A DNA stretch of 64,000 nt. Origin: an uncultured Bacteroidales bacterium. GTDB lineage: Bacteria; Bacteroidota; Bacteroidia; Bacteroidales; Bacteroidaceae. Shown piece by piece: positions 25,015 to 44,513 of this stretch. Where the stretch lies: contig CADCNQ010000021.1 in the NCBI GenBank assembly GCA_902802815.1, positions 1 through 64,000 of the forward strand, read 5' to 3'. The notes below the pieces were generated by a model. The model was given only the letters and a program-made list of their open reading frames with translations. It had not been told where the DNA came from and did not search any database. The first letter of the stretch is position 1; every line of letters starts with the position of its first letter. Position numbers and translations under genes: made by a program.

Positions 25015-25096
25015 TTTTTCCTATACTGGCGCGTAAAACATCTCCACGTAAGTGGTCTCAGAGACTTATTTTCTCTCGGTCATTAGTCGGGATTTT

Positions 25097-25173
25097 CCGA
25101 TAGATGCCCGATACATCCTCGATACATCCTCGATAGATGCCCGATAGATGCTCGATAGATGCCCGATAGATAA
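25097..25173. repeat. 11-bp tandem repeat, seven units
   Basis: Seven consecutive 11-base units of the form (C/T)CGATA(G/C)AT(G/C)C occupy the spacer between the convergent SIMPL and gyrB genes. CGAT occurs at 25,098 and then exactly every 11 bases to 25,164. The units vary at the same three positions (base 1, and the G/C pair that changes GATGC to CATCC). Confidence 0.93.
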
Positions 25174-41400: not shown

Positions 41401-41780
41401 CTTAGTGCATATGGAGGTTCGATGCCGCTTGTTATCGTGGAGTCGCCATACTGACGGAGCAAATCCTCCACCTTACTCTGTCGTGTCTTCAGTGTCAGTT
41501 CGCTGTTGCGTGTGAGGCATCGGTACTTCCAGTCGTCCAGTTCCTTCTGCAGAGCCTCTTCTTCAATTATCTCTTGCTGAGCCTGATAGCGGTTTGTGAC
41601 ATAGATGATGACTCCCACCAGTATGAGTGCGATGACGCCCAATTGTTTCTTGAACCACTGACCGTTGATACTCAGTGATTGCATTACTTCGAGGAATTTC
41701 TGCTTGTCGTCCTCGTCGCTCGTCAGACGCCGTCTCAGGTTTTTCAGTTCGTCCTTCATAACTGTGGCTTTATCTTTCAT
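41397..41780 (-). CDS. ftsL: FtsL-like cell division protein
   Basis: A 127-residue bitopic protein: a charged cytoplasmic N-terminus (KNLRRRLTSDEDDKQKFLEV), one helix (WFKKQLGVIALILVGVIIYVTN, about residues 45-66) and a short periplasmic coiled coil (QQEIIEEEALQKELDDWKYRCL), the expected layout of FtsL between rsmH and ftsI. An upstream TTG at 41,801 would extend it, but that codon lies within the 7-bp repeat array; the ATG at 41,780 is preferred. The stop overlaps the ftsI start. Primary sequence conservation is low, so the call depends on position and topology. Confidence 0.88.
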   Translation of the reverse strand: MKDKATVMKDELKNLRRRLTSDEDDKQKFLEVMQSLSINGQWFKKQLGVIALILVGVIIYVTNRYQAQQEIIEEEALQKELDDWKYRCLTRNSELTLKTRQSKVEDLLRQYGDSTITSGIEPPYALR

Positions 41781-41785
41781 CTCTA

Positions 41786-41820
41786 AACTTTCAACTTTCA
41801 ACTTTCAACTTTCAACTTTC
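41786..41820. repeat. 7-bp tandem repeat at the rsmH-ftsL junction, five units
   Basis: Five exact AACTTTC units (plus strand) cover the last codons and stop of rsmH (stop at 41,805-41,807) and reach to within five bases of the ftsL ATG. A change in copy number shifts the frame of the RsmH tail and the distance to ftsL. The units are related to those at 12,311-12,345. Confidence 0.95.
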
Positions 41821-42725
41821 TCCGCTACTCGCAGTTTTGCAGAGCGCGAACGGGGATTCCGTGCGATTTCCTCCTCGTCGGGTGTGCTCACTCCTTTACC
41901 TACGGCTCTCAGCGGTGTCTCCGTCCGTCCGAAGATGTCTTTCTCCACATCACCCTCCACGTTGCCCGAGCGGATGATGTTCTTTACCAGACGGTCCTCC
42001 AGAGAATGGTAGGAGAGCACGACGAGCCGTCCTCCGGGTTTCAGCACTTCGACGGCGCCTTTCAGCATCTCGCTGAGTGCCTTCATCTCGCCGTTCACCT
42101 CTATGCGCAGCGCCTGAAACACCTTGGTGAGTTCCTTTTTCTCGCGGTCGCGGGGCAGCACCTGTCCCACAGCCTCACTCAGGGCTCCGGTTGTCTGCAG
42201 AGATTCGTTCTCTCTGGCCTTCACTATTGCGCGAGCCACCCGTTGCGGCTCCTTTACCTCGCCGTAGAGGCGGAATATGCGGATGAGCTGCTCCTCGGAA
42301 TATTCGTTCACCACCTGTGCGGCTGTCAGGCGGCTCTTCTGGTTCATTCTCATGTCGAGCGGAGCGTCGCTGCGGAAGGAAAAACCGCGTGTTCCGTCGT
42401 CCAAATGATGGCTCGACACACCCAAGTCTGCCAAAATGCCGTCGGGCTCGATGCCGTAGTATTCAACCCAGTTCTTTAGGTATCGGAAGTTACTCCTGAT
42501 GAAACTCAGCCTGTTATCTTTTTCGAGTGCCTCTGCATTCTGTATTGCGTCAAGGTCCTGATCAAAGGCAAAAAGTCGGCCTTTCGGCCCCAATTCACCT
42601 AAGATTGCTTTTGAATGCCCTCCGCCACCAAAGGTGAGATCCAGGTAGGTCCCATCTCTCTTAATGTCGAGGCCATTGAGACACGGCTCCAACATTACCG
42701 GTGTATGGTAGCTGGGTATTAACAC
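41805..42725 (-). CDS. rsmH: 16S rRNA m4C1402 methyltransferase RsmH (MraW)
   Basis: A 306-residue SAM-dependent enzyme that methylates N4 of C1402 of 16S rRNA. YHTPVMLEPCLNGL at the start, YLDLTFGGGGHSKAIL (the SAM-binding loop), ILADLGVSSHHLDDGTRGFSF and VLSYHSLEDRLVKN are specific to the family. The start is GTG at 42,725; an in-frame TAA three codons upstream and the absence of an ATG before the conserved YH support it. It is the first gene of the division cluster; mraZ, the usual leader gene, is not upstream. Confidence 0.97.
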   Translation of the reverse strand: MLIPSYHTPVMLEPCLNGLDIKRDGTYLDLTFGGGGHSKAILGELGPKGRLFAFDQDLDAIQNAEALEKDNRLSFIRSNFRYLKNWVEYYGIEPDGILADLGVSSHHLDDGTRGFSFRSDAPLDMRMNQKSRLTAAQVVNEYSEEQLIRIFRLYGEVKEPQRVARAIVKARENESLQTTGALSEAVGQVLPRDREKKELTKVFQALRIEVNGEMKALSEMLKGAVEVLKPGGRLVVLSYHSLEDRLVKNIIRSGNVEGDVEKDIFGRTETPLRAVGKGVSTPDEEEIARNPRSRSAKLRVAEKVES

Positions 42726-42778: not shown

Positions 42779-42811
42779 CAAAGGTATGACTTTTTTCTGA
42801 TATAGATGCAA
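42779..42811 (-). promoter_or_regulatory. Promoter of the division and cell wall cluster
   Basis: On the minus strand the -7 box TACCTTTG (42,786 to 42,779) fits the consensus well. A TTG at 42,811-42,809 is a possible -33 element with a 22-base spacer, slightly long. The leader to the rsmH GTG is about 50 bases. Confidence 0.65.
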
Positions 42812-42918
42812 GTTTTTTGAAAAAAATATCACAATTTGATAAAAAATTTTTTGCAGCTCTTCCCGGGACCCTTTTTTCCTGCTTCCTACCTTCCTCCGAG
42901 CAGCGATGCATCAGACTA

Positions 42919-43025
42919 CGAGTAGAAACCGAGTAGAATACGAGCAGATAACGAGCAGTTAACGAGTTTTCTCGTACTCCACTCGTAGTCCACTCGTACA
43001 CCACTCGTTAACTGCTCGTTATCTG
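42919..43025. repeat. Inverted 11-bp array (5 CGAG + 5 CTCG units)
   Basis: CGAG occurs at 42,919, 42,930, 42,941, 42,952 and 42,963, exactly 11 bases apart. After a TTTT centre, CTCG occurs at 42,971, 42,982, 42,993, 43,004 and 43,015, again 11 apart. Bases 42,945-42,966 and 43,004-43,025 are perfect 22-base inverted repeats, and 42,908-42,915 pairs with 43,022-43,029 as an alternative outer stem. The centre ACGAG-TTTT-CTCGT is itself a hairpin. No known element class matches it. Confidence 0.95.
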
Positions 43026-43183
43026 ATGCGATTCTGGCCGTATTCTCCGTGGTCTCTGCGACGTATTGGTGGTGAGAAAAAATGAAATAATAAAAATAAC
43101 GATGAAATCGGAAATATTAGTGAACAAATCGGTAGGATTAACGTTTTTTACCACTTTCGCCTATGTGCACGCGGAAAATGATG

Positions 43184-43191
43184 TACCTTTG
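43184..43191 (+). promoter_or_regulatory. -7 promoter box of the PCMD lipoprotein gene
   Basis: TACCTTTG 23 bases before the ATG at 43,215 matches the consensus. No clear TTG lies at the expected -33 position. Confidence 0.6.
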
Positions 43192-43214: not shown

Positions 43215-44513
43215 ATGAATTTCTTTAAAACGCTGAAAACAATTCCTTTACTTTTGTCTGCAATGCTCGTGACGAGTGCTTGCTCAGATGAACCGGCTAA
43301 CATGGAGTGTGATGTGGAGACCATTTGGCTGGAAATAGATGATCCGTCATCTGTTTTTGATGACCCGTCGATGGCTTACATATATCTGGATTATATGGTT
43401 TCGACCGAGGCAGACGGTTTGAATATAAACTGGGAGGTGAAGCCCGACTGCGAGCTTGGTGCATATCCCGTTTATTTTACCCTCACTCCCGGAGCCACAG
43501 CATACATTTATGATGAAAACGGAGCGAGGATACTTTTCAGAAGCGGTGATGTGGTGGATTTCTCCGACGAGAGGAAAACAATAGTTGAAGTTGTTTCTCA
43601 GGACGGTGCTTGGTCGAAGCGCTATTCTTTGTCGATGTATCACAGGCAGATCAGCACTTCTACGTTCACCTTTGATTTCAACGAGGGAAGTTATGATTTC
43701 CATCTTTCGGCCAAGGGTGATCCGGGCAACTACTACAAGTTCAAACCGACAGATCCCCAGGCAATAGCATCGCTGTTCCGCAATCCGGATGACCCGTATT
43801 GGAAGAACGGTAATCCCGGCTTTGCCATCAGCCGTTCGTCTGCCACTCCCGATCAGTATCCCACTACTGTGGCTTTTGGGGCCGGTCCTGATGGCAGCGA
43901 CTGCGTGCTGATGCAGACGGTGTCTACCGGCGGTATCGGTGCGATGGCGAAGATATATATTGCTGCCGGCAGTCTGTTTGACGGAGAATTCAATGCTCAG
44001 AAGGCGATGAAATCTCGCTCTGCAGCCCGCACGGCCACCCAATTTGGTGTGCCTTTCGACCGCAAACCTATATCTATGACGGTGGATATGAAGTACATAC
44101 CGGGTCCTGCCTATTGGAATGAGGATAAGGTGGTGCAGCCCGCCATTGTGGACGAACCGGACGCATATATTGTATTCTACCGCAACGACGGAGGTCTGCT
44201 CGACGGCTATAATGTGCTGACAAGTTCCAAGATTATCGGTATGGGCCGTTTGAAGCACAATCTGAACCCCGACGGCAGCGACTGCCCGGGTTCACACCCC
44301 ATTCACGGACTTTCTGCCGAGTGGAAGACGGTGAAGCTCGACGTGGAGTATCCTAACGGTGATCCTGACCCTGAGATACTGAAGAATATGGGCTACAGCC
44401 TCATCATAGGTTTCTCCTCCAGTTGGCAGGGAGCCGATTTCCGAGGAGCGCTGGATTCTAAACTATACATCGACAATATCGTCGTGGAATGTGAGGATAT
44501 TTTGGGCGAATGA
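43215..44513 (+). CDS. PCMD-domain lipoprotein
   Basis: A 432-residue predicted lipoprotein. The signal peptide ends in LVTSAC with the lipobox cysteine at about residue 23. An N-terminal immunoglobulin-like region (about 30-145) precedes a C-terminal PCMD ('putative carbohydrate metabolism') domain, recognised by FTFDFNEGSYDF, GNPGFAISR, KPISMTVDMKYIPG and the final LYIDNIVVECEDI. Such proteins sit on the Bacteroidetes outer membrane, and a glycan-binding role is presumed but unproven. It has its own promoter and is followed by a beta-barrel gene after 31 bases. Confidence 0.85.
   Translation: MNFFKTLKTIPLLLSAMLVTSACSDEPANMECDVETIWLEIDDPSSVFDDPSMAYIYLDYMVSTEADGLNINWEVKPDCELGAYPVYFTLTPGATAYIYDENGARILFRSGDVVDFSDERKTIVEVVSQDGAWSKRYSLSMYHRQISTSTFTFDFNEGSYDFHLSAKGDPGNYYKFKPTDPQAIASLFRNPDDPYWKNGNPGFAISRSSATPDQYPTTVAFGAGPDGSDCVLMQTVSTGGIGAMAKIYIAAGSLFDGEFNAQKAMKSRSAARTATQFGVPFDRKPISMTVDMKYIPGPAYWNEDKVVQPAIVDEPDAYIVFYRNDGGLLDGYNVLTSSKIIGMGRLKHNLNPDGSDCPGSHPIHGLSAEWKTVKLDVEYPNGDPDPEILKNMGYSLIIGFSSSWQGADFRGALDSKLYIDNIVVECEDILGE

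Follow-up and report, generated by a model that had tools for sequence, protein, structure and literature searches.

Palindromes scattered between genes are a common feature of bacterial genomes. Among described elements, the closest to the arrays reported here are PINSR and BrickBuilt. PINSR resembles them in being of comparable length, intergenic, non-coding and multi-copy, in its restriction to a small clade of Bacteroidales and in having most of its positions common to strains; by contrast, it counts 177-184 copies, against about 12 for the family described below (family A), and, in a comparison made by description only, it is reported without terminal inverted repeats and with no 11-bp phasing (PMC4755523). 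BrickBuilt, a MITE of Porphyromonas gingivalis present in about 19 intergenic copies, likewise has tandem units and some inverted ends, and effects on adjacent transcription have been proposed for it, yet its units are 23 nt long and run in one direction, with a leader and a tail, whereas the arrays have 11-bp units, two mirrored arms and outer units (PMC4596501). REP sequences and BIMEs (GTAG and CGTC families) are also dispersed extragenic palindromes with several families per genome. However, they span 20-40 bp and lie mostly downstream of genes, between convergent or unidirectional ORFs, whereas the arrays cover 180 bp upstream of promoters; GTAG-type REPs are thought to be mobilised by RAYT, which the host of the arrays does not have (PMC3733652).

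Precedents for proteins sitting on tandem 11-bp repeats or iterons come from other systems. The operators of the MerR-type regulators CarH/CarA are made of three to five tandem 11-bp repeats (nnnnTnnACAn), along which the protein occupies one side of the helix; like the arrays, they combine a short fixed motif with variable bases next to promoters, but their repeats run in one direction and overlap the -35 box, while the arrays have 8 + 8 mirrored units upstream of the promoter (PMC9304148). The array units do not match a CarH operator proper, their consensus YRGWNWACGAG having no TnnACA motif. ParR binds the iterons of parC, the centromere of type II partition, a single locus of direct repeats by the partition genes, in contrast with 12 mirrored arrays at chromosomal loci (PMC5016525). 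No partition operon was seen beside these 12 loci (rsmH, OTCase, acyltransferase and others), and a search for a ParM-type partner (PF06406) gave no match, in control genomes as well. Set against these systems, the arrays look like a lineage-specific dispersed intergenic palindromic repeat, for which a docking or boundary function at the DNA level is the leading, if unproven, reading.

Layout of the array between rsmH and a lipoprotein gene

The window, meaning the whole stretch of 64,000 nucleotides that was analysed, carries one such array with the following surroundings and parts:

41805 to 42725, minus strand: rsmH (mraW), Pfam Methyltransf_5, E 9.5e-97, with a GTG start at 42725 or an ATG at 42695
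42779 to 42786, minus strand: TAnnTTTG box of rsmH, directed away from the array
42879 to 43058, no strand: complete family-A element, 180 bp, with eight 11-bp units on each side of a 4-nt centre
42879 to 42911, plus strand: outer left units 6-8, of the family type that is mostly CAGAGYC-N4
42906 to 42914, plus strand: left half of a covarying inverted repeat, at the boundary of units 5 and 6
42912 to 42966, plus strand: inner left arm, CAGACTACGAG TAGAAACCGAG TAGAATACGAG CAGATAACGAG CAGTTAACGAG
42967 to 42970, no strand: centre TTTT, AAAA on the opposite strand
42971 to 43025, minus strand: inner right arm, five mirrored units, read on the minus strand as CAGATAACGAG CAGTTAACGAG TGGTGTACGAG TGGACTACGAG TGGAGTACGAG
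43023 to 43031, minus strand: right half of the covarying inverted repeat
43026 to 43058, minus strand: outer right units 6-8
43184 to 43191, plus strand: TAnnTTTG box of the lipoprotein gene, directed away from the array
43215 to 44513, plus strand: divergent lipoprotein with a PCMD domain (PF13201, E 7.7e-46)

A first-pass annotation had described here five CGAG cores (42919, 42930, 42941, 42952 and 42963) mirrored by five CTCG cores (42971, 42982, 42993, 43004 and 43015), and each lies exactly where it was placed. The limits then given to the array, 42919 to 43025, proved too narrow: CAGAGYC-N4 outer units extend the element to about 42879-43058, an approximate extent based on the unit layout and on the per-position consensus of 29 elements from three genomes. 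The 22-bp perfect arms that had been proposed (42945-42966 and 43004-43025) are exact, and they pair with an offset of three units from the mirror axis. The second, outer stem (42908-42915 with 43022-43029) is exact too, but it cannot coexist with these arms, since bases 43022-43025 are common to both and the registers differ. The phased inverted array is real and far beyond chance: its mirrored 11-bp score reaches 0.744, whereas 300 dinucleotide shuffles average 0.445 (sd 0.016) and never exceed 0.520, and periods of 9, 10, 12 and 13 score far below 11 in the window.

As had been proposed, the array lies between the promoter of the division cluster and a divergent lipoprotein gene, the rsmH and PCMD lipoprotein boxes standing on either side of it. 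In the host, the division and cell-wall cluster begins with rsmH. MraZ, the usual regulator heading that cluster, binds short direct repeats near its promoter, and the array occupies the usual position of mraZ, as an operator for this protein might do. However, mraZ is missing, as the annotation had noticed, not only from its usual place but from the host genome (no PF02381 match, 97% complete), and the same element is found at 11 unrelated loci, so that an MraZ operator can practically be dismissed. Among 12 relatives of the same genus that were searched, six have mraZ, each about 0.1-0.5 kb upstream of rsmH.

Copies, shared sites and constraint on the core

The array of the window is not a one-off feature. 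By a mirrored pattern allowing at most two mismatches, which misses copies with one decayed arm and was run on incomplete MAGs (G046 is 78% complete, the host 97%), 12 copies are found in the genome of the host, a rumen bacterium (G000, 2.46 Mb), nine in G046 and ten in G047. None of the 98 remaining genomes of this genus search has a mirrored copy, and a reversed control pattern has zero matches anywhere in it. The exact 20-base core pattern occurs at 17 loci in about 85,000 genomes, all in RGIG10342 and Tb.RUG.95, rumen Bacteroidaceae MAGs that correspond to G046 and G047. Family-A copies are absent from the plasmids, phages and viral contigs that were searched. A family-A-like array is also present in G050 and G116, upstream of the gene adjoining host locus L049. 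The 29 elements from three genomes have a common plan, 8 + 8 units flanking four nucleotides in 11-bp steps from the centre. In the inner five units of each arm the consensus is YRGWNWACGAG; units 6-8 are of a different type, mostly CAGAGYC followed by four variable bases. ACGAG is nearly invariant in units 1-3: positions 8, 9 and 11 of unit 1 are invariant and position 10 reaches 98%, while positions 8-11 of unit 2 are all invariant. The 4-nt centre is A/T-rich in nearly every copy. Short, free-standing CAGAG/CTCTG 11-bp arrays resembling the outer units of family A were also seen in the host and G047 (L160:8538, L163:1525, L193:10387, L197:9513).

Judged from the genes alongside or from alignment of the flanks, family A occupies at least 11 of the host's 12 sites in G046 and/or G047 (the window with L066 and L068; L042 with L073; L043 with L070 and L074; L045 with L077, its flanks rearranged in part; L046 with L067; L047 with L072; L048 with L065 and L069; L049 with L061 and L063; L050 with L075; L051 with L071; L052 with L062 and L206). 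For L044 the same comparison found no matching occupied site in these two genomes. No clean empty site was found for family A, a dispersed, vertically inherited intergenic family. Between orthologues, differences in the inner four units fall on 33 of 440 core positions (7.5%, positions 7-11) but on 172 of 528 spacer positions (32.6%, positions 1-6), with position 5 differing in 58%, and alignable flanks differ mostly by about 15-35%. The contrast between core and spacer is large and seen in most pairs, which are not independent of one another; it is small or absent in the near-identical pair L042-L073 and in the close pair formed by the window and L066. The ACGAG core is maintained as sequence, beyond mere pairing. 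Change by whole units also occurs: the host copy at L049 is exactly one 11-nt unit short of L061 and L063.

The first-pass annotation had held a mere slippage product to be the null. Relatives do retain the phased arrays, and slippage as the sole cause is ruled out, since at least 11 of the 12 copies have orthologous counterparts in other species, with cores that stayed constant while the spacers drifted. A different origin would be that of a palindromic repeat, selfish or once mobile (of a REP, ERIC or MITE kind), that spread in the ancestral genome and was then inherited, the 11-bp units being, or having been, binding sites of the mobilising enzyme. Identical unit types at 12 loci imply that copies did spread at some time; family A is confined to a small clade, and Bacteroidales have intergenic repeats of a similar, lineage-specific kind, namely PINSR (PMC4755523) and BrickBuilt (PMC4596501). 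Yet the element has no gene inside, its ends have no sharp boundary, the arms fading unit by unit, no copy sits in plasmids, phages or viral contigs, and the constraint on the core is long-lived. Nor is there any sign of recent movement, since at least 11 of the 12 host sites are common to other species. No Y1/RAYT transposase was found in three genomes: PF01797 (Y1_Tnp) has no match in G000, G046 or G047, while control genomes are positive, and a RAYT-REP system is ruled out. We consider such a selfish repeat unlikely, and reading family A as a MITE is disfavoured.

Promoters, pairing and a candidate docking array

TAnnTTTG is the -7 promoter consensus of Bacteroidetes. An outward box lies 98-379 bp from the centre (mostly 113-290 nt) in 27 of 29 family-A copies, and the boxes around the family divide into 48 outward and 6 inward, compared with 38 and 14 around 33 large control intergenic regions, a set that includes some array-bearing regions and in which 9 of 33 are divergent. 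By crude ORF calling, 17 of the 29 elements lie between divergent ORFs. The adjoining genes include rsmH and those of an OTCase-like protein, an acyltransferase, a patatin, a histidine kinase, an MscS-like channel and an LMW phosphatase-like protein (gene calls being crude ORF picks, and the names patatin and phosphatase a reading of translations); they have no common theme and form no obvious regulon. Three small proteins adjoining arrays have no Pfam match. Two similar-looking proteins of about 132-145 amino acids, without a Pfam match, each adjoin an 11-bp array (L049:2395-2793 and L055:3129-3566).

Since the flanking promoters are directed outward, family-A copies are probably untranscribed, which favours a role at the level of DNA over one of RNA. 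To be sure, both strands of the array fold well, and the minus strand gives a single, stable hairpin (-77.9 kcal/mol, z -6.6) with U-G wobbles in unit 1, as might be expected of a transcribed hairpin serving as an sRNA or leader. However, inward promoters are rare, the strand preference is inconsistent, with wobbles in units 4-5 favouring the other strand, and Rfam has no match above the gathering score (MIR6462 only, at 24.1 bits for a cut-off of 96). Of the three readings first offered for the array (protein-binding array, cruciform or folded RNA), the structured RNA thus appears very improbable and the protein-binding array fits best.

The cruciform reading has divergent transcription underwind the spacer, upon which the imperfect palindrome would extrude and buffer or signal supercoiling, its mismatches tuning the threshold. 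The location between divergent promoters suits it, as do the A/T-rich 4-nt centre, the potential to form a highly stable hairpin (z about -6.4) and an inverted repeat at the edge of the array, nine nucleotides long at the boundary of units 5 and 6, that covaries locus by locus under an orientation-controlled null. Over the whole family this block makes 157 of 261 possible matches, against 125.8 +/- 6.7, a value reached in none of 3000 shuffles. Yet under the same kind of null, matches between an inner spacer and the partner facing it are fewer than expected (158 of 435 against 186.5 +/- 10.9, P = 0.003), the invariant ACGAG is not needed for pairing, and in some copies the most stable fold is in a shifted register. 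These P values are indicative only, since positions were picked after viewing the per-position table and orthologous elements are non-independent. An earlier, cruder null exaggerated the avoidance, most of which in the host came from the left and right arms being different classes; a smaller, element-specific avoidance is left, and it may reflect selection against a long palindrome that would be unstable. The check for compensatory changes, proposed with the array, accordingly gives two answers, covariation at the edge and avoidance inside, and extrusion as a cruciform seems quite unlikely.

In probably untranscribed promoter spacers where ACGAG itself is constrained, once per turn, a multivalent DNA-binding array fits, with one contact per helical turn, serving as a docking site or promoter boundary. 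This is the reading that we favour, tentatively. The array, chromosomal and non-coding, would work as double-stranded DNA; each 11-bp unit would present an ACGAG contact once per helical turn, and a multimeric DNA-binding protein would align along one face of each arm. Because the arms are mirrored, the resulting complex would have two sides and stand between two promoters that point away from it, where, as a docking site or boundary, it would shape or insulate them. Protein binding, readout of ACGAG and an effect on promoters are what we infer from the conservation of no fewer than 11 of the 12 sites, the indel of a whole unit, the constraint on the core and the outward promoters, together with the precedents of CarH and ParR. 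On the other side, the search turned up no cognate protein, no regulon is apparent among the adjoining genes, and the covarying repeat where units 5 and 6 meet would not be expected of a simple binding array; in addition, with 11 bp between contacts and about 10.5 bp to a helical turn, the sites would slowly drift around the helix. On balance, the sequences point to a putative chromosomal docking or boundary element of an undescribed kind. The arrays provide a case in which to test whether divergent genes are separated on chromosomes by phased elements for protein docking or boundary formation, this one standing ahead of the division and cell-wall genes in a bacterium that lost mraZ.

Other 11-bp families and replacement of units

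Family A is accompanied by a second family (family B) of the same architecture, with CATCTATCGRG units at about 20 host loci, one of them in the window:

25060 to 25172, minus strand: second-family array, ends approximate

The second family also sits among mostly outward promoters (27 outward TAnnTTTG boxes against 5 inward), and one of its arrays is conserved in G046, at a site with 7 units there against 5 in the host. Adjoining another of its arrays, a single ORF fuses a phosphomethylpyrimidine kinase domain to an AraC-type HTH (L058:1890-2783). In sampled, partly chosen stretches of host DNA there are further 11-bp arrays with additional unit types, and 11-bp arrays, mirrored and direct, are clearly commoner than those of periods 10, 12, 13 and 15; 6- and 7-bp arrays are likewise common there.

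The sister genomes carry other units at some of the same places. The rsmH spacer holds a second-family array in G050 and G098, and so does the acyltransferase site in G050, G116 and G098. At L051 an array of the AGAAACACGAG / CATCACCGCT type is found in G050, related in G116 and weaker in G098, and the L055 site has this type in G050. No array appeared at the patatin, OTCase, L043, L046, L050 and L057 sites tested in sister genomes. Tested by flanking gene, 5 of 11 sites are array-positive in G050 (rsmH, acyltransferase, L049L, L051 and L058), against 5 of 47 background windows. This supports a conserved array position with replaced units, in small numbers and over a background above zero. Position and 11-bp phase outlast sequence, since the same sites hold different units in the sister clade, which suggests either that the binder shifts its specificity or that phase and position outweigh sequence. 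For the docking or boundary reading this is a difficulty, as one conserved binder that recognises a particular sequence would not lead one to expect other units in sister species. It is possible, though doubtful, that the arrays form a class of regulatory or architectural elements set by position and 11-bp phase and not by sequence, staying in their promoter spacers through speciation while the units change entirely, so that unrelated unit families would be interchangeable in function. If true, exchangeable units of a single helical turn, kept between promoters across species, would be a new organisation of promoter spacers.

A neutral mutational product would dispense with function altogether: tandem growth by 11 bp and template switching in tolerant spacers would give birth to arrays that spread by conversion and decay. 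The several unrelated 11-bp unit families of the host, many of them near promoters in roomy spacers, agree with this, as do the frequent 7-bp arrays and a unit family that differs between clades at shared sites. However, cores diverge far less than spacers and flanks across species, at least 11 of 12 sites are retained, and plain slippage does not predict 11 when periods 10, 12, 13 and 15 are nearly absent. Such a neutral origin strikes us as distinctly improbable.

Tandem arrays of 7 bp lie in the window near 41735-41800 and 12277, seven being the commonest tandem period in the host DNA sampled. At L155:15125-15375 a direct 11-bp array of TTYAWSTCATG units is followed by apparent 22-bp repeats of the GGTTACTTCGGACTGGCAGTTC type, and the spacer at L167:9420-9680 is composite, with at least three consecutive 11-bp unit types (TATCTACTACC, GTTGGCAAGGT and GAAGGACGAGA).
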